A DNA stretch of 64,000 nucleotides from Dickeya aquatica. Its GTDB lineage: Bacteria > Pseudomonadota > Gammaproteobacteria > Enterobacterales > Enterobacteriaceae. Made by a program: the position numbers and the translations under genes. Location of the stretch: assembly GCF_900095885.1 (NCBI RefSeq), contig NZ_LT615367.1:4154001-4218000 (forward strand), read 5' to 3'. This document shows, piece after piece, positions 13,411 through 25,761 of this stretch (position 1 is its first letter; the number at the start of each line of letters is the position of its first letter). The notes beneath the pieces are model-generated. The model was not told where the DNA came from and ran no database searches. It saw nothing but the letters and a program-made list of their open reading frames with translations.

Positions 13411-14004
13411 ATGACTGAAATGATCTCAGCAACCGTGTTGTTGCTGTTAATTATGGACCCGCTCGGCAACCTGCCGGTGTTTATGTCGGTGCTCAAGCAC
13501 CTTGACCCGAAACGGCGGCGGGTGGTGCTGATCCGCGAGATGATTATTGCGCTGGGCGTAATGCTGCTGTTCTTGTTCGCCGGTGAGAAAATTCTCGCCA
13601 TTTTGAACCTGCGCACCGAAACCGTTTCTATTTCAGGCGGGATCGTGCTGTTTTTGATAGCGATCCGTATGATTTTCCCGACACAAGAAGGTTTTACCAG
13701 CGGCTTGCCTGCCGGTGACGAACCCTTTTTAGTGCCGCTGGCGATCCCGATGGTGGCTGGGCCGTCGATACTGGCGGCGCTGATGCTGCTGTCACACCAA
13801 TATCCCAACCAGTTACCGCACCTGACGCTGGCGCTATTCATCGCCTGGGGCATCACGGTTGTTGTGCTACTCCTGTCGAACCTGTTCTTACGCCTGCTCG
13901 GCGATAAAGGCGTGAATGCGCTGGAGCGCCTGATGGGGCTGGTGCTGGTGATGCTCTCCACCCAGATGTTTCTCGATGGCATCCGCGCCTACCTGAAGCT
14001 GTAG
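13411..14004 (+). CDS. yhgN: MarC-family inner-membrane protein YhgN
   Basis: Multi-pass inner-membrane protein of the MarC/UPF0056 family, 197 residues with about six hydrophobic segments (for example IGMGAATVL-type helices LFLFAGEKILAILNL and LVMLSTQMFLDGI). The N-terminus LLLIMDPLGNLPVFMS is the family signature. The biochemical role of the family is not established. The gene keeps its enterobacterial position next to asd and the gluconate genes. Confidence 0.93.
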   Translation: MTEMISATVLLLLIMDPLGNLPVFMSVLKHLDPKRRRVVLIREMIIALGVMLLFLFAGEKILAILNLRTETVSISGGIVLFLIAIRMIFPTQEGFTSGLPAGDEPFLVPLAIPMVAGPSILAALMLLSHQYPNQLPHLTLALFIAWGITVVVLLLSNLFLRLLGDKGVNALERLMGLVLVMLSTQMFLDGIRAYLKL

Positions 14005-14016
14005 GCGCGTTCTGGC

Positions 14017-14045
14017 TCGCAGGCCCGCACACTGGCGGCCTGCGA
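14017..14045. terminator. Hairpin between convergent yhgN and gntT
   Basis: TCGCAGGCC pairs exactly with GGCCTGCGA across an 11-base loop, just after the yhgN stop and before the convergent gntT stop. There is no clear T-run, so it may be a weak bidirectional terminator. Confidence 0.5.
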
Positions 14046-14077
14046 CGGTTTATCGCGCGTGGCGCACCCGCTTATCG

Positions 14078-15394
14078 TTACACCACATAGCTCAACAACA
14101 GCGTGCCAATCAACCCACACACCGCAATGATGGTTTCCAGCGCTGACCAGGATTTCAGCGTTTCAGGAATGCTCAGGTTGAAATACTCCTTGAACAGCCA
14201 GAAGCCGGGGTCATTAACGTGAGAGAAAATCACGCTGCCGGAGCCAACGGCTATCACCATCAATTCCGGGCTGACGCCGGAGGTCGCTATCAATGGCGCG
14301 ACGATACCGCCCGCCGTAATAGCCGCCACCGTCGCCGAACCGAGCGCGATGCGCAGCGTCGCGGCAATCAGCCAGGCGAGTAAAATCGGCGAAAAACCGC
14401 TGCCATGCATCATACCGGCAATGTATTTATCCACGCCGCTGTCAACCAGCACCTGCTTGAACGCCCCGCCACCGCCGAGGATTAACAGCATCATGGCGAT
14501 AATTTTTATCGAATCGGTGATGGTGCCCATCACCTCGTCCATGGTGCGCCCGCGATTCAAACCGAAGGTAAAAATGGCTATCAGCACCGCAATCAGCGTC
14601 GCCATCACCGGGTCGCCGAAGAACTCGGCATACGCCAGTAATGGGTTATCTTTCGCCAGCACCATTTCCGCGACCGCGCGCAGGGCCATTAATATCACCG
14701 GCACCAGCGCCGTCATCACGCTGACCAGAAAACCGGGCATCTCCTGTTCGGTGAACTGTTTCGGGTTATACAGCCCTTCCGGGATCGGTTTATCGATTTT
14801 TTTCAGGAAACGGGCGTAAACCGGCCCGGCCAGAATCACCGTTGGAATACCGAGCAACGTGCCGTACAACAGCGTCTTGCCCATGTCGGCATGAAACAGC
14901 GAAGCAATCGCCGTCGGCCCCGGATGCGGCGGCAGGAAACCGTGCGTGACCGATAGCGCGGCGGCCATCGGCACACCGGCATACAGCAGCGGAATGCGGG
15001 CAGACGCCACAATACTGAACACCAGCGGCAGCAACAGCACAAACCCGACTTCATAGAACAGCGCAAAGCCAACGGTAAAGCCGGTCAGCACTATCGCCCA
15101 CTGGATATGTTTGCGGCCAAAGCGGTGGATCAGCGTGGTGGCGATGCGCTGCGCGCCACCGCAATCCGCCAGCAATTTCCCCAGCATCGCGCCGAAACCC
15201 ATGATCAGCGCCAGGCTACCCAGCGTACCGCCAACCCCATTTTTGATAGAGGTCATCACCTTTTGTACCGGCATTCCCTGCATCACGCCCACCGCCAGGG
15301 CAACCAGAATCAATGCAATAAAGCCGTTCAATTTAAAGCGGATCATCAGCACCAACAGCAGTGCGACACCGACAGCAACAATCACGAGTGGCAT
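14078..15394 (-). CDS. gntT: High-affinity gluconate permease GntT
   Basis: Inner-membrane gluconate:H+ symporter of the GntP family. The 438 residues equal E. coli GntT, and many blocks are the same as I recall them there (LALIMGFGAMLGK, THGFLPPHPGPTAIA, GSGSVIFSHVNDPGFWLF). About 12-14 membrane segments. GGAGAGAG precedes the ATG. E. coli carries the low-affinity gntU at this locus; here a GntT-like gene occupies the site, divergent from gntK, with a shared operator in between. Confidence 0.93.
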   Translation of the reverse strand: MPLVIVAVGVALLLVLMIRFKLNGFIALILVALAVGVMQGMPVQKVMTSIKNGVGGTLGSLALIMGFGAMLGKLLADCGGAQRIATTLIHRFGRKHIQWAIVLTGFTVGFALFYEVGFVLLLPLVFSIVASARIPLLYAGVPMAAALSVTHGFLPPHPGPTAIASLFHADMGKTLLYGTLLGIPTVILAGPVYARFLKKIDKPIPEGLYNPKQFTEQEMPGFLVSVMTALVPVILMALRAVAEMVLAKDNPLLAYAEFFGDPVMATLIAVLIAIFTFGLNRGRTMDEVMGTITDSIKIIAMMLLILGGGGAFKQVLVDSGVDKYIAGMMHGSGFSPILLAWLIAATLRIALGSATVAAITAGGIVAPLIATSGVSPELMVIAVGSGSVIFSHVNDPGFWLFKEYFNLSIPETLKSWSALETIIAVCGLIGTLLLSYVV

Positions 15395-15415
15395 AACTCT
15401 CTCCGGCAGCCCTTA

Positions 15416-15433
15416 CCGGCACAACGGTGCCGG
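15416..15433 (-). promoter_or_regulatory. Hairpin in the gntT 5' leader
   Basis: CCGGCAC and GTGCCGG pair perfectly around a 4-base loop, immediately upstream of the gntT ribosome-binding site. It could modulate translation, or be a second degenerate GntR-like site because the flanks read TTACCGG and CCGGCAA. Confidence 0.35.
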
Positions 15434-15549
15434 CAACAGGGTATTTTCTGGTGTGTTACGAAAGCATCCGGTGTTTTGGCTGCACCTTCGCTACAGTAGG
15501 GTCAGGCGTTTAGGGAGGATTCCCGATGTGATATTCATCACAACGCACA

Positions 15550-15579
15550 ATGTTACCGGTATCATGATACCGGTAACAT
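15550..15579. promoter_or_regulatory. GntR operator, 30-bp perfect palindrome
   Basis: The half-site ATGTTACCGGTATCA is followed immediately by its exact inverse complement. It resembles the known E. coli GntR box (ATGTTACC core) and lies in the gntT/gntK divergent promoter region, 60 bases before gntK. It is almost certainly the binding site of the GntR repressor encoded downstream. Confidence 0.85.
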
Positions 15580-15638
15580 GTTAAAGTCTGAAACCAGCGC
15601 GAAGCATTTAATTTACACTTTGGGATAGAGATCAAATT

Positions 15639-16184
15639 ATGTCAGGACAAAGTATTATTCTGATGGGGGTTTCCGGTAGCGGAAAATCCAGCGTGGGGGC
15701 GCAACTCGCCCAGGAGATCAACGCCAAATTCATTGACGGTGATGACCTGCATCCCAAAGCCAACATCCAGAAAATGGCGGCTGGCCAGCCGCTTAACGAT
15801 GATGACCGCGCCCCCTGGCTGGAACGCCTCAATGATGCCGCCTACAGCCTGCATCATAAAAATGAAACCGGCATTATCATCTGCTCTGCGCTCAAAAAAC
15901 GCTACCGTGACCGACTACGCCACGGCAACGACGGTATGGTGTTTTTGTATCTGCAAGGCAGCTTCGAGGTGATTTTACAGCGCCATCAGGCGCGGGCCGG
16001 GCATTTTATGCCCACCGCCTTGCTGCAAAGCCAGTTTGATGCGCTGGAACAACCCGATGAAACAGAAAATGATGTGATAACCGTCGATATCAATGGCTCA
16101 ATGGAGCAAGTGGTAGAACGTTGCGTGACGGCGCTGCACGCGCACCTGTCACACCAGACGCTAAACACTCTCGCCAGTCTGTAA
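15639..16184 (+). CDS. gntK: Gluconokinase GntK
   Basis: Phosphorylates gluconate to 6-phosphogluconate, feeding the Entner-Doudoroff and pentose phosphate routes. 181 residues (family about 175) with a Walker A motif GVSGSGKSSVGA at residues 9-20, DGDDLHPKANIQKMAAG substrate motif and ICSALKKRYRDRLR. GAGATC precedes the ATG. It is divergent from gntT and its 3' end overlaps that of gntR tail-to-tail by 24 bases, unlike E. coli where gntR-gntK-gntU run on one strand. Confidence 0.95.
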   Translation: MSGQSIILMGVSGSGKSSVGAQLAQEINAKFIDGDDLHPKANIQKMAAGQPLNDDDRAPWLERLNDAAYSLHHKNETGIIICSALKKRYRDRLRHGNDGMVFLYLQGSFEVILQRHQARAGHFMPTALLQSQFDALEQPDETENDVITVDINGSMEQVVERCVTALHAHLSHQTLNTLASL

Positions 16185-17159
16185 GACGAAGCCGACGTCC
16201 ACACTGGCCGTCGGCGGTGTTTCGCCATTTAACCGCGCCAGCAGTTGTGTTGCCCCTATCTCGCCGATGCGCTTACGCGGCGTCAGCACACTGGTCAGGC
16301 GCGGCACCGTGGTCTGGCCGATATCATGACCGTGAAAACCGGCAATCCCCATCTGCTCCGGCACCCGAATCCCCTGTCGCTGGCACTCAAACATCGCCCC
16401 AATCGCCAGGTCATCGTTGGTGCAAAACAGGCTATCGAGCTCGGGGTACTCCACCTGTGCTCGCCGCAACAATTCACCACCCAACGTATAGGATGACGGG
16501 CTCTCACTCATGACGCTGTAGCAGGGCAGCCCGGCTTCCGTCATCGCCTGCTGATAACCCCGCTGTTTTTGCAGCGTGCGTTCATCCTGACGCGCGCCAA
16601 GGTATACCACCCGCCGGCGGCCACGTTCAAGCATGTAGCGCGTCATCTGGCAGGCCGCCGCCACGTTATCAAACCCGACGGCCATATCCAGGCAAGGCGA
16701 TACCGAGTCCATCAGCTCCACCACCGGAATACCGGCAACGGCAATCATCTGCCGGGTGCGGTCAGTGTGGGTACGTTCAGCCAAAATCAACCCGTCAATG
16801 TTGTAAGCCAGCAGTGACATCAAGCGCTGCTCTTCCACCTCCGGCTGATAGCCGTAATGGGCCAGCATGGTTTGATACCCCTGCGCTTCTGTCACTTTTT
16901 CAATACCGCGCAGCACCTCGGCAAACACCTGGTTAGTCAGTGACGGCAGCAGCACGCCAATCGCCCGGCTGGTGGAATTAGCGAGAATATGCGGCGTTCG
17001 GTTAGGGATATACCCTAACTCATCAAGCACGGCGGCAAGCTTGCCCCGCAAAGCCACAGAAACCTGCTCGGGGTTGCGCAAATAGCGGCTGACCGTCATT
17101 TTGGTCACCCCCACCCGGTCTGCGACATCCTGCAACACCGGCCTTTTTTTCTTGATCAT
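16161..17159 (-). CDS. gntR: LacI-family gluconate repressor GntR
   Basis: LacI-family repressor of the gluconate genes, released by gluconate. 332 residues. HTH at residues 8-30 (QDVADRVGVTKMTVSRYLRN), hinge (PHILANSTSRAIGVLLPSL), then a periplasmic-binding-protein-like sensor domain. GGGGAT lies before the ATG. Convergent with gntK, overlapping its 3' end. Its probable operator is the palindrome at 15550-15579. Its promoter faces the carA promoter across an AT-rich gap. Confidence 0.95.
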   Translation of the reverse strand: MIKKKRPVLQDVADRVGVTKMTVSRYLRNPEQVSVALRGKLAAVLDELGYIPNRTPHILANSTSRAIGVLLPSLTNQVFAEVLRGIEKVTEAQGYQTMLAHYGYQPEVEEQRLMSLLAYNIDGLILAERTHTDRTRQMIAVAGIPVVELMDSVSPCLDMAVGFDNVAAACQMTRYMLERGRRRVVYLGARQDERTLQKQRGYQQAMTEAGLPCYSVMSESPSSYTLGGELLRRAQVEYPELDSLFCTNDDLAIGAMFECQRQGIRVPEQMGIAGFHGHDIGQTTVPRLTSVLTPRKRIGEIGATQLLARLNGETPPTASVDVGFVLQTGESV

Positions 17160-17504
17160 CCATTGATATCCCCATGATTGAAAACGCTGATTGTACTAAA
17201 GAAATGGTTAGCAAAATATGTATCTGAGCAAAGGTTACAAAAACAGAAAAAATTGAATATAACGTCAATTATACTATTTATTATTTAATTTCTAGCTCAT
17301 TATTAATCAATACATCATTAATAATTAAATTAACATTAACCGTAACCATATATGACACATGAATTTAATTTTTTTATTAATGAAATAAAAAAATAAGGAA
17401 TGTTTTTTTATTGTTTTTTCATATGTAATTTCAATTTTAAAACCACATGATTTGTTGTATTTTTGTTTCTGAATTCGATTAGTTGTAAAAAATAAGGAAA
17501 TGAA
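17160..17504. promoter_or_regulatory. AT-rich gntR / carA divergent promoter region
   Basis: 345 bases, strikingly AT-rich, between divergent gntR and carA. It must hold the car operon promoter. An imperfect palindrome built of ATTATTAAT and TTAATAAT lies at 17299-17335. I see no 20-bp lux-box-like palindrome, and no carR gene is present here or elsewhere in the window. AAGGA stands seven bases before the carA ATG. Confidence 0.5.
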
Positions 17505-19016
17505 ATGAAACATGGCTTTTGCATTGCCAAGGGTGATGCCTGTTTGAACATTAAAAAAAGCATCACGGATTTACCCTTAAAAATAGAAAACTTACGAGAT
17601 GGATACCTATTTATTGGAGATAAATCTCGATTTGAAAAAATGGTAGCGGATAACGAAACGCTCTATCTGATTGGGACAATTAATAATAGACAATTACTTG
17701 AAAGCCTTGTCGGTCGCTATGATGCTTCGGCATGGAGCCTGCGCGATATCGAATTACTCCATACGATTTTTTTATATCTTGGCACACATGCATTATCTCT
17801 GGCAGAAGGGAGCTTCTTCTTTTTTAAAGAAAATAACAAAGGGGAGTTAACCTTACTGACAGACCCCAATGGATTTATGCCTGTACATGTTATTCATGAC
17901 CATACCGCACTTTGGATAACAGATCGGCTAAAATTTGTTGGTCGCGTTGCTCAAAAAGGCATTTTTGATTTCATGCCTGAAGATAAAGTCATACAGCATG
18001 TTCTACATTCAGATACGTTTACACCAATAAAAAACGCCATCAGACTCAAACCCGGCTCTATCAATCAGATAAAGAAAGATATGCAGGGTTATGAATATCT
18101 GGGTAGTGATAATATTTACCCTGCCAATACCAACAAGCAGTTGAATATTTCCAAAGACGTGCTGTTCGAACTTATCGACAACTACCTGAAAGCCCCCTTT
18201 CGTTCTCTGGTACAGACGCACCAGACCGTTGGCATTCCACTGTCTGGCGGTCTGGATTCAAGCCTGGTAACTGCACTGGCCAGCCAGTTTTTTCAACACA
18301 TTAAAACCTGGTCTATAGGCACAGAGATCAGCAACGAGTTTGAATACTCTCAAATGGTCGCGGATGCACTTGGCACTGAGCATCATGTTAAAATACTGAC
18401 GGAAGCCGATGTCATCAATGGCGTTATCGAGGCCATTTACCATAATGAAATTTTTGATGGCCTCTCTGCTGAGATTCAATCGGGATTATTTAATGTCTAC
18501 CGAATGGCGCAGAACAATGTAAGTGTCATGATGACAGGCTATGGTTCGGATCTATTATTTGGCGGCATATTAAAACCGGGCGAAAAATACGTATCACCTA
18601 ATAAAGTTCTCTGTGAACAGGTTTACCGAACTCGTTGGACGGGAGAGTTTGTTTCTCATGGTGCTGCTCATTACGGGTTACAGCTTAACCATCCATTTTG
18701 GAATAATGATTTAATTTCTCTCTGCAGGAACCTTAACCCTGATTATAAGATCAAAGATAATGAAGTAAAAAATATACTCAGAGAGTACACAGAAAAATTA
18801 AACCTGCTCCCCAAAGAAATTGTCTGGCGTAAAAAAATTGGCATTCACGAAGGTTCATCGGTTAACAAATCATTTGCTAATATACTTGGCCTTCATGTTG
18901 ATAACTATAGCCATAAAACCCGCTTTACTTATCGGGTCTACAAATCCTTCCTGGAAAATACACTCTCACTGGAAAACACTACCAGTGATCATCTACGCAA
19001 ACTAATAATGGATTAA
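17505..19016 (+). CDS. carA: Carbapenam synthetase CarA (beta-lactam ring closure)
   Basis: ATP-dependent enzyme that adenylates (2S,5S)-carboxymethylproline and closes the beta-lactam to give carbapenam carboxylate. It derives from class B asparagine synthetase: a degenerate N-terminal glutaminase-like domain (about 1-205, no N-terminal catalytic Cys) and a synthetase domain. The PP-loop SGGLDSS is at residues 247-253. Catalytic residues appear conserved: Tyr in TGYGSD (346), Glu in WTGEF (381), Lys in WRKKIGIHEGSS (443/444). 503 residues, the CarA length. AAGGA precedes the ATG. First gene of an AT-rich operon-like run; carB starts three bases after its stop. In Pectobacterium a LuxR-type carR precedes it; none is present here. 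Confidence 0.95.
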   Translation: MKHGFCIAKGDACLNIKKSITDLPLKIENLRDGYLFIGDKSRFEKMVADNETLYLIGTINNRQLLESLVGRYDASAWSLRDIELLHTIFLYLGTHALSLAEGSFFFFKENNKGELTLLTDPNGFMPVHVIHDHTALWITDRLKFVGRVAQKGIFDFMPEDKVIQHVLHSDTFTPIKNAIRLKPGSINQIKKDMQGYEYLGSDNIYPANTNKQLNISKDVLFELIDNYLKAPFRSLVQTHQTVGIPLSGGLDSSLVTALASQFFQHIKTWSIGTEISNEFEYSQMVADALGTEHHVKILTEADVINGVIEAIYHNEIFDGLSAEIQSGLFNVYRMAQNNVSVMMTGYGSDLLFGGILKPGEKYVSPNKVLCEQVYRTRWTGEFVSHGAAHYGLQLNHPFWNNDLISLCRNLNPDYKIKDNEVKNILREYTEKLNLLPKEIVWRKKIGIHEGSSVNKSFANILGLHVDNYSHKTRFTYRVYKSFLENTLSLENTTSDHLRKLIMD

Positions 19017-19019
19017 AAA

Positions 19020-19772
19020 ATGATTCTTGAAGAGACACGAGATAACGTAAAAATTATTACGCTTAATCACCCCAATAAACATAATCCTTTTAATCAGGCC
19101 CTGGAAAATGCCGTCAAAGCAGCATTAAAAAATGCAAATAGCGACCCGGAGGTTAACGCTATCGTTGTTTACGGAGGGAAAGGATGTTCATTCTCCGCAG
19201 GCGGCGACTTTAATGAAGTAAAAAACCTCTCCGGTGGCGCTGACGTTGAACGCTGGATTGATCGTGTTATCGACCTTTACGAAGCGGTGCTGCACATTAA
19301 TAAACCCACGGTGGCCGCTGTAGATGGCTATGCTATCGGCATGGGATTTCAGTTTGCCTTGATGTTCGACTACCGAATTATGGCGAACGGCGCACGTTTT
19401 GTAATGCCTGAACTCAAACATGGTATCGGATGCTCTGTCGGCGCGGCTATTCTGACATTTACCCATGGATATAACCTAATGAAGGATATCATCTTCAAAT
19501 GTCAGGAATTGGATGAGAACTTTTGTCTTTCACACCACATTGTGAACGAAAAAGTCGAACCGCATCAGCTACTGGAGCGTGCATTCGCGCAGGCCAAAGA
19601 ATTGGCGGCGTACCCTTATGCCGCGCTGTCAAAAACCAAACAATCCACTAACCGGAGTTTTCTCGAACTCCTTGAGAAAACAAGAATTGAATCTAAAGAG
19701 GTTCATAAAGCCGCTTTTGGCGCACGGGATGCACAAAAGCATTTTCATCACATTCTCGGAAATAAGTACTAA
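19020..19772 (+). CDS. carB: Carboxymethylproline synthase CarB
   Basis: Crotonase-superfamily enzyme that decarboxylates malonyl-CoA and adds the enolate to pyrroline-5-carboxylate, forming (2S,5S)-carboxymethylproline, the CarA substrate. 250 residues, family length. The crotonase oxyanion-hole segments are GCSFSAGGDFNEV (about 60-72) and DGYAIGMGFQFALMFDYRIM (about 102-121), followed by the active-site Glu region (MPELKHGIGC). Only a weak Shine-Dalgarno sequence is seen; the start lies three bases after the carA stop, so coupling is likely. Context leaves little doubt that this is CarB and not a fatty-acid enoyl-CoA hydratase. Confidence 0.95.
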   Translation: MILEETRDNVKIITLNHPNKHNPFNQALENAVKAALKNANSDPEVNAIVVYGGKGCSFSAGGDFNEVKNLSGGADVERWIDRVIDLYEAVLHINKPTVAAVDGYAIGMGFQFALMFDYRIMANGARFVMPELKHGIGCSVGAAILTFTHGYNLMKDIIFKCQELDENFCLSHHIVNEKVEPHQLLERAFAQAKELAAYPYAALSKTKQSTNRSFLELLEKTRIESKEVHKAAFGARDAQKHFHHILGNKY

Positions 19773-20603
<831 letters not shown>

Positions 20604-20631
20604 CCACACCGAAAATTAAGATTATTTAATT

Positions 20632-20693
20632 AACTGGCCTGGTATTATCATACTGGCATGATGGGTTTTATTTTTTTAAAACCACGGCCAGTT
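20632..20693 (+). promoter_or_regulatory. Nested hairpin between carC and carD
   Basis: AACTGGCC (20632) pairs with GGCCAGTT (20693), enclosing an inner stem GGTTTT/AAAACC at 20664-20683 with a T-rich loop. It sits in the only sizeable gap within carA-carG. It could be an RNA-stability element or an attenuator separating carABC from carDEFG levels. It lacks a T-run after the outer stem, so it is not a standard terminator. Confidence 0.45.
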
Positions 20694-20710
20694 TTAATAA
20701 TGGAGGTTTT

Positions 20711-21841
20711 ATGGAAAATATTAATACCGAGTTGGTGTTCGCGCGATATCGCACCAGAACTCTGACATTCAAACTGCTAGCCTCAGCATTACTGAGTAAT
20801 AAGAAGACAAGAACCGTATCAATTTATGTTTTAAAGAAAATATTACATATTAGCCAAGATACAGTATTAAAACTGGTTAATGGTATTTACTTTGGTGGCG
20901 AGACATTAAAACAAGTAACCCATACCACCTCAGCACTGGGGAGAGAAAACATCAATAGTATTATTGATTATGCTATTGAAGGCGAGAATACAGAGTCGAT
21001 TTACAATGATGTTATGAGTAAGACTCTCTCCCTCATTGACATCGCAGCTGAAAATAAAAACATCCCTTTTGTGGTCATTAAACCTTCATCCCTTGGCAGC
21101 ATTGAGTTATACCGCGCCATCACCCTTAACCAAAACCTGACGCCAGAACAGCAGCAAGAATGGGAAAATGTGACCAAACGGTATATCCAAATCTTTGACG
21201 CTGCTGGCGATAAAAAAGTCAGGATCATGGTCGATGCAGAGCAATCATGGATACAACCGGCCGTAGACGATTTCATTATAAGTATGATGAGGAAATATAA
21301 TCAAAACTATCCTCTGTTGACATTAACACTGCAATTTTATTGCAGAGACAAACTTGAACGACTGAAAGAGTATTACCAGCAGGCATGTGAGCATCATTTC
21401 TATCTGGGTATAAAACTGGTGCGGGGTGCTTACCTTGAAGAGGAGAATCGCATTTGTCATGATCACTGTTTTACTGAAAAATTCGAGACAGATAATAATT
21501 ACAACAGTGCTATTCAGTTTGTTGCCGATCACATCGACCGTATCTCTCCTTTTTTCGCCACGCACAATGAGCACAGCCTGGCGTTGATCCGACAAAGTCC
21601 AACATTAAAGAAAAATATCTGGTTGGGTCAGCTCTATGGTATGGGAGACCATATTACCTGGTCACTTAATCATGAAGGTTTTTCCGTATGTAAGTACGTG
21701 CCATTCGGGCCATTAAAAAAATCGTTACCTTATCTTCTAAGGCGAATTGAGGAAAATGCTATCCCCTCAACCACATTTTCCACAGAGAGAAAGCTTATCA
21801 GAAAAGAACTTCATCGCCGAATAAAGAGGATTGTGTTATGA
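20711..21841 (+). CDS. carD: CarD, proline dehydrogenase-like flavoprotein
   Basis: FAD-dependent proline dehydrogenase homologue. In the known pathway CarD with CarE oxidises proline to pyrroline-5-carboxylate for CarB, and it is not absolutely essential for carbapenem formation. 376 residues; the PRODH barrel motifs are visible: VRIMVDAEQSW (about 175), LGIKLVRGAYLEEE (about 235) and a C-terminal LRRIEENA substrate-binding helix. A strong GGAGG lies five bases before the ATG. The gene overlaps carE by four bases (ATGA), indicating translational coupling. Confidence 0.93.
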   Translation: MENINTELVFARYRTRTLTFKLLASALLSNKKTRTVSIYVLKKILHISQDTVLKLVNGIYFGGETLKQVTHTTSALGRENINSIIDYAIEGENTESIYNDVMSKTLSLIDIAAENKNIPFVVIKPSSLGSIELYRAITLNQNLTPEQQQEWENVTKRYIQIFDAAGDKKVRIMVDAEQSWIQPAVDDFIISMMRKYNQNYPLLTLTLQFYCRDKLERLKEYYQQACEHHFYLGIKLVRGAYLEEENRICHDHCFTEKFETDNNYNSAIQFVADHIDRISPFFATHNEHSLALIRQSPTLKKNIWLGQLYGMGDHITWSLNHEGFSVCKYVPFGPLKKSLPYLLRRIEENAIPSTTFSTERKLIRKELHRRIKRIVL

Positions 21842-22107
21842 AAAAAGACTTCACCTGCAAAATAAAAAACACAAGTCAAACGTTCCATCTCACAGAGGAA
21901 GAGACTATACTTTTGTCCTCATACCAGGCAGAAATACCACTCAAGTATCATTGCAATGCCGGGCATTGTGGTATTTGTAAAGTCAAACTAATTCAGGGAG
22001 AAGTGGATATGCAACACACCGGAGGAATATCCCGGGATGACATAAAAAACGGCTATATTCTGCCTTGCTGTACACAACCTTTAAGCAATATTGAAATAGA
22101 AGTTTAG
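21838..22107 (+). CDS. carE: CarE, [2Fe-2S] ferredoxin
   Basis: Small plant-type ferredoxin, 89 residues, proposed in the carbapenem pathway to carry electrons for CarD and perhaps to re-reduce CarC. The cluster ligands are CNAGHCGICK (Cys-x4-Cys-x2-Cys, about residues 40-48) and a fourth Cys in LPCCTQPLSN (about residue 80). The start overlaps the carD stop and is preceded by AGAGGA. Cytoplasmic. Confidence 0.95.
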   Translation: MKKDFTCKIKNTSQTFHLTEEETILLSSYQAEIPLKYHCNAGHCGICKVKLIQGEVDMQHTGGISRDDIKNGYILPCCTQPLSNIEIEV

Positions 22108-22142
22108 CAAATTAACTTACCTAATTTAATAAAAGGATGCTA

Positions 22143-22685
22143 ATGTTCTCCTGTGCTATTAGAGTGGCTGTAACCATATTAGCTATTTGTGTTACCAACA
22201 GTAGTTACGCAAACTGCATGCAAGAGGAAAAGATAAGTCAAGGGGTTAATTATCTCTCGCTTATTAATCACGGAAAGAAAGATTTAGCCATCCTTTCTTT
22301 TTTTGATAATAATACTTCACACCCTAATCGGGGGCTGAGTTTTTATATCAAAGACAGCCATGGTTATAGCATTATTCCTGTTCCAGATAGTAATGTGTTC
22401 ATCTGGTTTGACTATAGTCTATCGGCGTCTCGTATTAATATCTTTGATTATCGGCTTTACCATTCCCCCAAAGGAAAGAAACTGATTAGCGTACAAAAAC
22501 GGGGGGATGATTTGACTGCCATGCAACCGATCAAGGTAACGGTTTATAAACTGGTAGAAAGCCATAATGACCCTGGAGTCCCGCCTTACAGTTGGGTTAT
22601 CGAAAAAACATTAACAACCAAAGAGAGATATGGTTCTGCTTATGAAGTGCTGGATAATATTCGCTATCTTTGCTCTGTTCTTTAA
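22143..22685 (+). CDS. carF: CarF, carbapenem self-resistance protein (periplasmic)
   Basis: Occupies the carF position. In Pectobacterium and Serratia, CarF and CarG together protect the producer from its own carbapenem by a mechanism that is not beta-lactam hydrolysis. 180 residues with a signal peptide ending TNSSYA (about residue 24), predicting export. No beta-lactamase SxxK or zinc motif is seen. ATG 22143 is chosen over 22137 because AAAAGGA ends five bases before it. The 3' end overlaps carG by 44 bases in another frame. Assignment rests mostly on gene order, length and signal peptide. Confidence 0.85.
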   Translation: MFSCAIRVAVTILAICVTNSSYANCMQEEKISQGVNYLSLINHGKKDLAILSFFDNNTSHPNRGLSFYIKDSHGYSIIPVPDSNVFIWFDYSLSASRINIFDYRLYHSPKGKKLISVQKRGDDLTAMQPIKVTVYKLVESHNDPGVPPYSWVIEKTLTTKERYGSAYEVLDNIRYLCSVL

Positions 22686-23217
22686 ATTACTGAACCCTGT
22701 TAGTGCAAATACGAAAAAACCGGACCATCTGCGTTTTTACGCTCGCCTGACACAAGAATTTATCGACGGCTGGTATTCACCTTGTCTGGGAGAAAAAGTG
22801 TGGCCAATTAAAACCCCTCGAACCGAAGCCTCATGGTTATCCGGTCGGCTCAATGCATTGGTATCAGTTGGGCTAGTCAAAAAAACAGACCGAGGTAATA
22901 ACAGTATATGGTCATTAACCCAGTCAGGGCAGGATAATTTTAAGCCTTATGATGATTTCTGTTACGGCAGAATTGCACTTCATCAGATAACACATTATGA
23001 GTCTATTTCACCGGAAATGGTTTTAATTAATTACACCTACACGATTGAAGGATTACCTGACTGGGCAAAAAACAAAGATATTCGCCATGCCTTTTCCGAA
23101 CTGGATAATTGGCTGAGTGGCATTAAGCATACTCAATATCAAGTCACGATTCGCACAGCCATCGGCGGTGCGCCAAAAATACAGTCACCGCCTGAGCCCT
23201 TAAATCTGGATTATTGA
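22642..23217 (+). CDS. carG: CarG, carbapenem self-resistance protein (periplasmic)
   Basis: Second immunity gene of the car cluster; 191 residues from MKCWIIFAIFALFFK, a typical signal peptide ending NPVSA. The mature part contains WLSGRLNALVSVGLV and WSLTQSGQDNF, a compact domain that looks like a small winged-helix fold, but I recognise no enzyme motif. Another in-frame ATG lies at 22630; 22642 gives the cleaner signal peptide. It starts inside carF, so it is probably co-translated with it. Function is from family knowledge of the cluster. Confidence 0.85.
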   Translation: MKCWIIFAIFALFFKLLNPVSANTKKPDHLRFYARLTQEFIDGWYSPCLGEKVWPIKTPRTEASWLSGRLNALVSVGLVKKTDRGNNSIWSLTQSGQDNFKPYDDFCYGRIALHQITHYESISPEMVLINYTYTIEGLPDWAKNKDIRHAFSELDNWLSGIKHTQYQVTIRTAIGGAPKIQSPPEPLNLDY

Positions 23218-23224
23218 AAACGCT

Positions 23225-24094
23225 ATGAAATATAATTCTGTTATTTGTGGAATATTACTGATTGGCCAGCTTACACACGCGGCACAGCCAAAATTAATGC
23301 CTGAGGAAATCGCCATCAAAGGTGGTGCATTTTATGTCGGTAATATTTTTGGCGACAAAGACTACACTAGCCACGCTAATGTCATCCTCAAACCTTTTTA
23401 TATTATGCGAACAGAAATCACCTACTCACAATATCAGCACGTGCTTCAATGGGCGGAAAGTCACGGCTACGCATTTGAAAATGGCTGTAATGGCGGCCAT
23501 TTTGATGATTGTCTGCCCGCAGAGCAAGATAATGGCGGGCACCCCGTCACAACCCTCTCCTGGTGGGATGCAGTGGTCTTCGCTAACGCTTTAAGCGCTT
23601 TACAACAATTGACACCGTATTACCTGACCGCAGATGGACGACCTCTCACATCTGTACCCAGAGAACACTCTCTAAGTGTTGTCAGGAATCCCGATGCTAC
23701 CGGATACCGTCTGCCTTCATTGAATGAATGGCAGGTTGCCGCACGCGGCGGTAGGCCCGCTCTGCTTCAGGGGACATATGGCCGCATCTATTCCGGTAGC
23801 GATAACCCAGAAAATATCGCCAATATGCCTAAAGACAACAGCACGACTTTTGATACCCACCCTGTCGCACAACAGCGACCCAATCCTCTTGGCTTATACG
23901 ATATGACGGGTAACGTCTGGGAATGGATAGACGATGATTTTCAGATGACAGGACTTAATAACATGCACTATTTCTGTGGCGGCAGTTACCTGATGCGCAT
24001 CAGCAACCTGTCGGAGTGCGATGTTCATACCCCAAATTTCCCGACCTCGGATATCGGTTTCAGGCTGGTGAAACCAGCACCACAATCCCAGTGA
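23225..24094 (+). CDS. Secreted FGE/SUMF1-fold protein in the carH position
   Basis: 289 residues: signal peptide (GILLIGQLTHA, cleavage near residue 19), then one formylglycine-generating-enzyme (SUMF1) domain. Fold signatures are clear: GGAFYVGNIFGDKDY, RTEITYSQYQ, HPVTTLSWWDAVVFANALS, YRLPSLNEWQVAARGG, LGLYDMTGNVWEW, GGSYLMR and DIGFRLV. The two copper-binding Cys of true FGEs (in the GGSYMC...C stretch) are absent: the protein has GGSYLMRISNLSEC, so sulfatase activation is unlikely. It starts seven bases after carG and ends the car run, where carH lies in other producers; I cannot confirm carH orthology. Periplasmic; role unknown. Confidence 0.8.
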   Translation: MKYNSVICGILLIGQLTHAAQPKLMPEEIAIKGGAFYVGNIFGDKDYTSHANVILKPFYIMRTEITYSQYQHVLQWAESHGYAFENGCNGGHFDDCLPAEQDNGGHPVTTLSWWDAVVFANALSALQQLTPYYLTADGRPLTSVPREHSLSVVRNPDATGYRLPSLNEWQVAARGGRPALLQGTYGRIYSGSDNPENIANMPKDNSTTFDTHPVAQQRPNPLGLYDMTGNVWEWIDDDFQMTGLNNMHYFCGGSYLMRISNLSECDVHTPNFPTSDIGFRLVKPAPQSQ

Positions 24095-24164
24095 TTAAAT
24101 TAAAGGGCGAATCTGGCATTACAAATATGAAGTGCTTTTTTCAATGAGAGAAGAAAATGTTCTA

Positions 24165-24333
24165 GGGTGTGTCCCTTAACGATTTTTGTACAATTCAGCA
24201 TTGTTAGAAACTGTGCAAAAAACTTTTAAGCGATAAAGAACGCCCAAAAACGATCGATATCCAACCAAAAACCACCTTTCGGAAATGATTTTGCAGCATT
24301 CTTTAACGGGCAGAGAGGTTAAGGGACAGACCC
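24165..24333. mobile_element. MITE-like element or IS remnant with 16-bp terminal inverted repeats
   Basis: The left end GGGTGTGTCCCTTAAC and the inverse complement of the right end (GGGTCTGTCCCTTAAC) match at 15 of 16 positions. The 169 bp between the outer ends hold no open frame, fitting a miniature inverted-repeat element or an internally deleted insertion sequence. A target duplication is not clear; the flanks read CTAG and CGAG if one outer base is excluded. It lies just after the car cluster. Confidence 0.6.
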
Positions 24334-24473
24334 GAGATCTGTTAAATACTGGCATATTTGTAAACAGACACTGGCGCGTAACATGAAGTTTTGATAGCCA
24401 AATGTAGTAACAAGCCTGCCGGTGAGGCAGTGAAGAAATAAAGCCACAAAAACAGACAACCTATACACCATGT

Positions 24474-24513
24474 CAACCAGTAAGGCAGGCCTATCAGCCT
24501 GCCTTACTGGTTG
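24474..24513. terminator. 17-bp perfect hairpin, probable bidirectional terminator
   Basis: CAACCAGTAAGGCAGGC pairs without mismatch with its inverse complement across a 6-base loop. It lies between the convergent car-side genes and pirin. No T-run follows on either strand, so intrinsic termination is not certain; it may also stabilise 3' ends. Confidence 0.5.
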
Positions 24514-24555
24514 GTGATCTCTCTACTGTGATCTCTCTACTGTGATCTCTCTATT
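24514..24555. repeat. Three tandem copies of a 14-bp unit
   Basis: GTGATCTCTCTACT occurs at 24514 and 24528 exactly, and a third copy ending ATT begins at 24542. The array abuts the hairpin stem directly. No function is evident; it is likely slippage-prone. Confidence 0.85.
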
Positions 24556-24604
24556 GTTGTGCGCTTCTGCCCCATGACATGAGTTCATATGGGCAAATCA
24601 CGCC

Positions 24605-25303
24605 TTATTTTACCGGCGGCAAATCAAACAGCAGGATTTCACTGTCTTCGCTGGCCTGCACGGTGATTTCCGTTTCATCCCAGATGGCCAGCGCATCGCT
24701 GGTCGTTGCTTGCTGACCGTTAATGTCAATCGAGCCTCGCACCACCTGAATCCATAATACACGGCCCTGTTGAGTCTGGTAGGACGAGGTTTCCTGCGCC
24801 TTCAGCGCCCAGCGCCATAGCGTCATGTCCTGAAAGACCTTCAGCGAGCCGTCACGCGCATCGGGTGACAGCACCAGTTGGCGGCCCTGAGGATCGTCAA
24901 ACCGGCGTTGATCATAGCGCGGCGTCAGGCCGGTTTTTTCCGGCAGGATCCAAATTTGGTAGAGGTGCAGCGGCATATCCTGACGCGCGTTATACTCCGA
25001 ATGACGAATACCAGTACCCGCGCTCATTATCTGGAACTCACCGGCCGGGATCTGTTCCTTATTGCCCATACTGTCCTGATGCTCTACCGTGCCGGCCAGC
25101 ACATAGGTCAAAATTTCCATATCACGGTGCGGATGGGTGCCAAAGCCCTGACCGGCTGCAATGACATCTTCATTAATCACGCGAAGTGCAGAAAACCCCA
25201 TAAAATCAGGATCATAATAATCAGCAAATGAGAAAGTGTGCCAGCTATCGAGCCAGCCGTGGTTAGCGTGGCCGCGATCGTGTGCTTTACGTAAATAAAT
25301 CAT
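24605..25303 (-). CDS. yhhW: Pirin-family protein YhhW (quercetin dioxygenase-like)
   Basis: Bicupin pirin protein of 232 residues; E. coli YhhW (231) has quercetin 2,3-dioxygenase activity in vitro. The N-terminal cupin holds the metal site: GTHPHRDMEIL (two His) and GTVEHQDSMG (third His), with a Glu or Gln further on. The start MIYLRKAHDRGHANHG matches the family and has AGGAGCG at proper spacing; the frame is open 85 codons further upstream but that part is not family-like and covers ryhB-side DNA. In E. coli it lies beside gntR; here the car cluster intervenes. Confidence 0.95.
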   Translation of the reverse strand: MIYLRKAHDRGHANHGWLDSWHTFSFADYYDPDFMGFSALRVINEDVIAAGQGFGTHPHRDMEILTYVLAGTVEHQDSMGNKEQIPAGEFQIMSAGTGIRHSEYNARQDMPLHLYQIWILPEKTGLTPRYDQRRFDDPQGRQLVLSPDARDGSLKVFQDMTLWRWALKAQETSSYQTQQGRVLWIQVVRGSIDINGQQATTSDALAIWDETEITVQASEDSEILLFDLPPVK

Positions 25304-25484
25304 GTTGCGCTCCTGTTGCGTTTTTTTCAGTCTAACGGGCAGCGCATAATATGAAAGCTGAAAAAACTCACCGCTCTGTTCAAAAAATTTCCGCGAGAAA
25401 AGGAACCCATTTGCCTCACCCACCGTGACAGCAGCAACAAAAAAAGAAACCAATAGGAAACCAGATTCCAAAAAATACGACGCA

Positions 25485-25604
25485 AAAAAAAGCCAGCACC
25501 CGAGCTGGCTAAAGTAATACTGGAAGCAATGTGAGCAATGTCGTGCCTTCACAGTCAAACCGCATGAGTCGCAAAGAGGGATTCATCAGGTTTTCCCGGA
25601 ACGC
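25485..25604 (-). ncRNA. ryhB: Small regulatory RNA RyhB
   Basis: Iron-stress small RNA that with Hfq represses mRNAs of iron-using proteins. The core on the minus strand, from GGCACGACATTGCTCACATT through GCTTCCAGTATTACTT, is nearly identical to E. coli RyhB as I recall it, and it ends in a GC hairpin AGCCAGC/GCTGGCT followed by eight T. A Fur box overlaps the promoter; a TTTACA -35 and TATTAT -10 place the 5' end near 25604. At about 120 nt it is longer than the 90-nt E. coli RNA, the extra bases lying 5' of the core. The locus next to yhhW also agrees with E. coli. Confidence 0.93.
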
Positions 25605-25610
25605 ATGGCA

Positions 25611-25629
25611 ATAATAATCATTATCATTC
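25611..25629 (-). promoter_or_regulatory. Fur box in the ryhB promoter
   Basis: The minus strand reads GAATGATAATGATTATTAT, close to the 19-bp Fur consensus GATAATGATAATCATTATC. It overlaps the -10 element TATTAT (25611-25616), so Fur-Fe(II) binding would block ryhB transcription. Confidence 0.85.
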
Positions 25630-25761
25630 GCATCTGTAAAGCATTTTTTTTGCTCAATATCAGGAAAAACGGTGCTCCTGCATCGACAAAGACAACGACC
25701 TGCTGATTACCTATTCATCATCAATGCGTTACGGCAACACTCGCCTCTCATCATGCACCAT

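Follow-up and report, generated by a model that had tools for sequence, protein, structure and literature searches.

Two described forms of the simple carbapenem (car/cpm) cluster bear directly on the locus considered here: carRABCDEFGH of Pectobacterium and Prodigiosinella (Serratia ATCC 39006), a subtype in which carR lies directly upstream of carA, and the cpm clusters of Photorhabdus and Xenorhabdus. In Serratia 39006, as excerpted from PMC5601083, carF and carG are resistance genes with an internal promoter and carH has no known function. Excerpts from PMC6989131 give carR in 21 of 61 Pectobacterium strains and describe it as genus-specific and as having probably joined the other car genes at a later time. 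Eight-gene car clusters are listed for D. aquatica, D. lacustris, D. undicola and some strains of other species (PMC10319131, Table 11), and the excerpted text of PMC6813493 adds strains of D. chrysanthemi and D. zeae. The presence of car in Dickeya, the restriction of carR to Pectobacterium and the existence in Pectobacterium of loci with the carF-G-H trio only are already published. Here we analyze the car cluster of Dickeya aquatica within a stretch of 64,000 nucleotides (contig NZ_LT615367.1, positions 4,154,001 to 4,218,000; hereafter the window), where a preliminary description had reported a complete cluster with no carR beside it.

Our interpretation, to which we assign a probability of about 0.72 from the sequence comparisons below, is that the window has a full cluster for 1-carbapen-2-em-3-carboxylic acid, maintained by selection, and that in its Dickeya lineage carR probably never belonged to that cluster. 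Judging by orthology, CarA to CarE would make the antibiotic, and CarG and CarF would give self-resistance. carA would most likely be transcribed from its own conserved AT-rich leader, at about 17360-17504, controlled by regulators that also serve the rest of the genome and not by a dedicated LuxR-type activator, and the immunity genes, which have the rotated order G-H-F, would represent a block with a history partly separate from that of carA-E.

Eight intact frames occupy 17505-24094, all on the forward strand, free of internal stops and in the order carA-B-C-D-E-G-H-F. Orthologues of CarA, CarB and CarC are encoded side by side, as identified by both Pfam and PDB matches: carA (17505-19016) specifies a carbapenam-3-carboxylate synthase with CarA_N and Asn_synthase domains (PDB 1q15, E 4e-181), carB (19020-19772) a carboxymethylproline synthase of the crotonase family (PDB 2a7k, E 3e-105) and carC (19791-20603) a carbapenem synthase, an iron/2-oxoglutarate oxygenase (PDB 1nx4, E 1e-156). 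The redox pair follows, identified by Pfam matches and locus comparison, with carD (20711-21841) proline dehydrogenase-like and carE (21838-22107) a 2Fe-2S ferredoxin. Both self-resistance proteins are present by sequence, namely CarG (22137-22685; PF21955; PDB 4o7j, E 7e-33) and the FGE-like product of the last gene (23225-24094), which matches PDB 5aoh (E 1e-104), an entry deposited under the name "spore coat protein CotH" that we take to be CarF. Between them lies carH (22642-23217, with an alternative start at 22630), whose product has no Pfam family and, by eye, a signal-peptide-like N-terminus; its predicted structure (predicted local distance difference test score 84.8) is loosely cystatin/NTF2-like, at background level. 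We assigned the tail genes as carG, carH and carF because in Pectobacterium an FGE-like gene follows carE and homologs of the other two come next, and because of the published carA-H order. The residues Y346, E381 and K444 of CarA and H98, D100 and H248 of CarC, presumably catalytic, are all in the translations, as is the SGGxDSS loop at 247 of CarA; the preliminary description had named these residues and the loop correctly. It had also given CarE four cysteines, and C39, C44, C47 and C77 do have ferredoxin spacing, but the protein has six in total; likewise, its "carA-G" was right as to completeness and intactness but one gene short, as the cluster comprises all of carA-H and ends in G-H-F with carF last.

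With carRABCDEFGH the locus shares the placement of all eight genes on one strand and the order of carA-E. Identity to the five carR-bearing loci is 82-84% for CarC, 64-65% for CarB, 54-57% for CarA, 52-55% for CarF, 38-43% for CarG and 37-42% for CarH. The window differs from them in having no carR, in its G-H-F tail where the CarR-controlled subtype has carF-carG-carH, in the separate branch of its CarA and in its site between gntR and yhhW. Four cpm loci also have the full set without an adjacent carR (in Xenorhabdus carH is in two pieces), but their tail is F-G-H and their CarA proteins, 50-51% identical to that of the window, belong to another lineage of the CarA tree.

How unusual, then, is the missing carR? 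The interval between gntR and yhhW holds no carR frame, in agreement with the preliminary description, which had gone on to propose control by another regulator or by an unlinked carR. Only the first proposal stands, since a complete cluster without a neighboring carR implies some other regulator; no CarR orthologue (Autoind_bind/GerE, at least 60% identity) was found elsewhere in the genome, which was searched as one contig of 4,501,560 bases. The genome encodes two Autoind_bind proteins, ExpR beside ExpI (a LuxI-type synthase) and a solo of 206 amino acids. The five CarRs are 60-95% identical to each other, 40-42% to ExpR and 28-31% to the solo. A reading of the solo, located at 1.83 Mb, as a CarR that has diverged is suggested by its being the genome's second Autoind_bind protein and by E-values slightly better against CarR than against ExpR; its low identity to proteins that are otherwise so alike makes this scarcely credible, as do the best matches to it in the eight other Dickeya genomes searched, D. 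undicola with its car cluster included, which are only 31-33% identical and lie at the ExpR locus, and its surroundings, which by eye comprise an MFS transporter, a transketolase and transposase frames. The solo itself (1829548-1830165) has a partial autoinducer-binding domain and was found in one of the nine Dickeya genomes, and the transketolase frame beside it is split. A second Autoind_bind protein occurs in four of the nine, and none is CarR-like.

A wider comparison led to the same view of carR. We fetched 26 CarA loci, D. undicola 2B12 (L005) being the one named Dickeya locus among them, dropped six (L025-L030, 22-30% identity) and annotated 20, four of which (L018-L021, Burkholderiales) are without most of the cluster; flanks were inspected for CarR over 10 kb or to the contig end. 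A CarR-like frame stood beside carA in five of the 20 annotated loci, four from Pectobacterium and one from Prodigiosinella, and there was none within the fetched flanks of the other 15, among which are three from Photorhabdus. According to excerpts of PMC5488855, P. luminescens, whose own cluster is not among the loci compared, inhibits a carbapenem-sensitive Enterobacter in an overlay assay. On a CarA tree of the 18 rows whose gene context had been seen, the distribution of carR requires a single change, on the one branch that unites Pectobacterium and Prodigiosinella (support 95/96; 94% of 200 bootstrap trees), and none of 500 label shuffles gave so low a count. Dickeya lies outside that branch and, since carR is confined to it, more likely never had the gene. 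Absence of carR is the usual state outside one clade and is, consequently, less odd than the preliminary description had implied. As a separate observation, Pantoea sp. At-9b has a PAS-HTH regulator divergent beside carA (L081 6015-6734), at the position that carR has in Pectobacterium.

What might control carA instead? The leader (17160-17504, forward strand) is 345 bp long with a guanine-plus-cytosine (GC) content of 22%, and its identity to the D. undicola leader is 88% near gntR, 53-62% in the middle and 82-96% over the last 145 bases, 17360-17504, including a 28-base AT block (17369-17396) that is identical in both. Because the gntR-proximal part, to about 17230-17246, is common to car-free Dickeya, the cluster-specific part is the carA-proximal one, and the carA promoter probably lies within the conserved 17360-17504. 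One alternative is that the resident quorum-sensing pair has taken over and that ExpR, with the ExpI signal, directly controls carA. All nine Dickeya genomes encode an ExpR orthologue (85-100% identical to that of the window's genome) and an ExpI homolog in the same locus; in D. undicola, ExpR, 86% identical, is the only Autoind_bind protein. The identity of 40-42% between ExpR and CarR also favors such a takeover, and deletion of expI abolished carbapenem in P. brasiliense 1692 (excerpt of PMC6813493). The preliminary description had seen no lux box, and indeed no lux-like box stands out in the window's leader (shuffle p 0.54 or more), but this counts for little, as the same scan found none in the five carR-bearing loci either, with no p below 0.17. 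In the D. undicola leader the loosest lux-core pattern reached p 0.07, a better match than in any of those five controls, but it sits in the gntR-proximal half. We regard direct control by ExpR as unlikely, though it is the main rival to general regulators, which are our default for carA.

The divergent neighbor of carA suggests a further candidate, GntR, a LacI-family repressor, which would tie the antibiotic to gluconate. In its favor, gntR and carA share the one 345-bp intergenic region, and RbsR, another LacI-family protein, affects carA expression in Serratia 39006 (excerpt of PMC5601083). However, the best GntR-box match in the leader has three mismatches to the consensus (shuffle p 0.39), whereas the gntU-gntK region, used as a positive control, gave two mismatches and p 0.01, and we consider control by GntR very improbable.

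If general regulators do serve carA, is the cluster in use? Comparison with D. undicola, which has the same site, gene order and leader block, no carR and a CarA 87% identical to that of the window, indicates that it is maintained. The ratio of nonsynonymous to synonymous substitution rates (dN/dS; Nei-Gojobori, our own script) is 0.03-0.14 in all eight car genes and 0.02-0.12 in five flanking genes, and the car cluster is thus under purifying selection. DNA identity per 300 bp is 72-92% in the car genes and 74-89% in the flank 14000-17299, as would be expected if cluster and flank had long been resident together. The alternative that the cluster is silent for lack of an activator draws on the lack of a dedicated regulator and on the 22% GC of the leader. 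Very AT-rich DNA is typical of regions silenced by H-NS, and cryptic car clusters are known in Erwinia and Pectobacterium. However, purifying selection on every one of the eight genes and the conserved carA-proximal leader speak against silence, which we think improbable, more so than control by ExpR.

Several observations weigh against our interpretation. Genome G001, whose gntU and yhhW are the closest to those of the window, is without CarA and CarG. The sigma-70-like sites in 16100-25700 number 19 against 20.1 expected by chance, with none listed in the leader. Branches of the CarA tree are long, and it was rooted at the midpoint. Synonymous divergence (dS) between window and D. undicola is 1.05-1.23 for carA-C and 1.0-1.6 for the trio, values near or above 1 and so close to saturation that long residence is only roughly supported. 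It falls to 0.41 in carD and 0.37 in carE, and this dip, together with the conflicting signal of the trio described below, points to recombination between species.

The trio is the less expected part of the locus. DNA identity to D. undicola is 89-92% over 20600-22099 (carD-carE) and then 72-85% across the trio, a break in similarity at the carE/carG border that looks as if the immunity genes had been exchanged as a cassette. All three Dickeya loci, those of the window, D. undicola and genome G008, have the tail G-H-F. Both carF and carG were present in 16 annotated named loci. Twelve of these read F-G-H, one of them with carH split in two; D. undicola reads G-H-F and Providencia H-F-G, and in two Vibrio loci F precedes G and no H was found. 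The tail on a Pantoea plasmid is F-G-H. In Pectobacterium (the genus of genome G236), 16 of 25 genomes have CarG, four of these repeating named loci; seven of the 16 fetched stretches of 10-18 kb contain carR and a complete carA-H, and nine show trio genes only within the stretch fetched, carA not having been searched for elsewhere in these genomes. Of the nine, one has just G-H, one is degenerate, one has carH divided into two pieces and one lies near a contig end. The order is F-G-H wherever F is present.

G008 has carG-carH-carF alone at the gntR-yhhW site (L054 3943-5958), and CarA was not found in its genome. It thus resembles the Pectobacterium loci without carA-E, carF-G-H in P. parmentieri, P. 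wasabiae and one P. brasiliense strain (excerpt of PMC6963963) and carF/carG without the cluster in some Pectobacterium (excerpt of PMC6813493), but its order is G-H-F where theirs is F-G-H. Its trio is nearer to the window (dS 0.61-0.90) than to D. undicola (0.88-1.66), whereas its gntR and yhhW are nearer to D. undicola (0.59 and 0.74) than to the window (0.93 and 1.10). Although the values are near saturation, this conflict points to an exchange of the trio between Dickeya lineages. Both G-H-F and H-F-G are cyclic shifts of F-G-H, as tandem duplication with unequal loss would leave; with three genes, such a pattern can be partly due to chance. Tentatively, and at somewhat short of even odds, we suggest that carF-G-H is a cassette in its own right, rotated twice independently (G-H-F in Dickeya, H-F-G in Providencia), exchanged between Dickeya species independently of carA-E, the similarity breaking at carE/carG, and present by itself at this site in G008, while synthesis in Dickeya proceeds without CarR. 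Two 130-bp direct repeat copies (90%) flank the trio of G008. Musicola keenii has CarH and CarG on 500,493-base contigs, perhaps another trio-only locus; no Musicola was among the 105 CarA matches, names being shown for part of these only.

The chromosomal site is as the preliminary description had it, an AT-rich block (41.1% GC over 17160-24604 against 54.1% for the whole window) between two reverse-strand genes outside the cluster, gntR (16161-17159), for the LacI-family gluconate repressor, and yhhW (24605-25303), pirin-like. In E. coli these two genes lie close together. No integrase or transposase gene lies in the interval, where the frames of at least 80 amino acids are the car genes and shorter frames overlapping them. 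The preliminary description had asked whether the occupied interval might be ancestral in all relatives, and it is not: two of the nine Dickeya genomes have CarA, one more has only the G-H-F genes and six have neither CarA nor CarG. In four car-free genomes a distance of 1.05-1.44 kb separates gntR from yhhW and contains a single small uncharacterized frame (140-281 amino acids). Right of carF, 480 aligned columns of the D. undicola locus are 89.6% identical to car-free L040 and extend into the small gene, and the cluster therefore lies within an otherwise ordinary intergenic stretch. D. undicola keeps a small gene between carF and yhhW; the window shows none, and has there an element of 177 bp (24161-24337) with 20-bp inverted ends, resembling a miniature inverted-repeat transposable element, of which the genome has three further copies of nearly full length (79-82%) and six matches to the ends alone. 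A small variable gene between gntR (or gntK) and yhhW was seen at L040 1668-2108, L042 1595-2434, L055 9002-9745, L056 11557-12306 and L005 about 17102-17549; the two copies tested had no Pfam match. G001, which of the nine is most closely related to the window, has its gntR broken into two frames that overlap (L055 10845-11844); for G004, neither a search at E 1e-120 nor the stretch fetched yielded a gntR.

Beyond these genomes, CarA was found in at least two, and CarG in at least two, of 394 sampled genomes of the order, that of the window being one each time; among close and order-level relatives (80 requested, 77 searched besides the genome's own entry), two matched CarA, both Dickeya. A 4,851,809-base contig named D. 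dianthicola carries CarA and CarG, and Table 11, the part of PMC10319131 at issue, gives car as absent from that species. Proteins of 738-805 amino acids (P0089-P0092) combine Asn_synthase and enoyl-CoA hydratase domains like a CarA-CarB fusion; one is labeled Brachionus plicatilis, a rotifer, and represents either transfer to an animal or contamination.

Open-licence literature text yielded no account of the rotated tail or of the gntR-yhhW site, although Figure 4 of PMC6813493, which concerns neighborhoods, may show the order. Nor did we find the Dickeya site with G-H-F only or the similarity break between carE and carG described, and the rotated trio, perhaps moving separately, is the variant worth following. 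Control by CarR is the textbook example of an antibiotic turned on by quorum sensing. If it is true that a sister genus runs the same pathway without CarR, then CarR would be a late addition, and the basal control of the pathway could be sought by comparing Dickeya with Pectobacterium. If it is also true that the immunity genes rotate, travel and persist alone, then they would show how such protection can persist after a natural carbapenem is no longer made.

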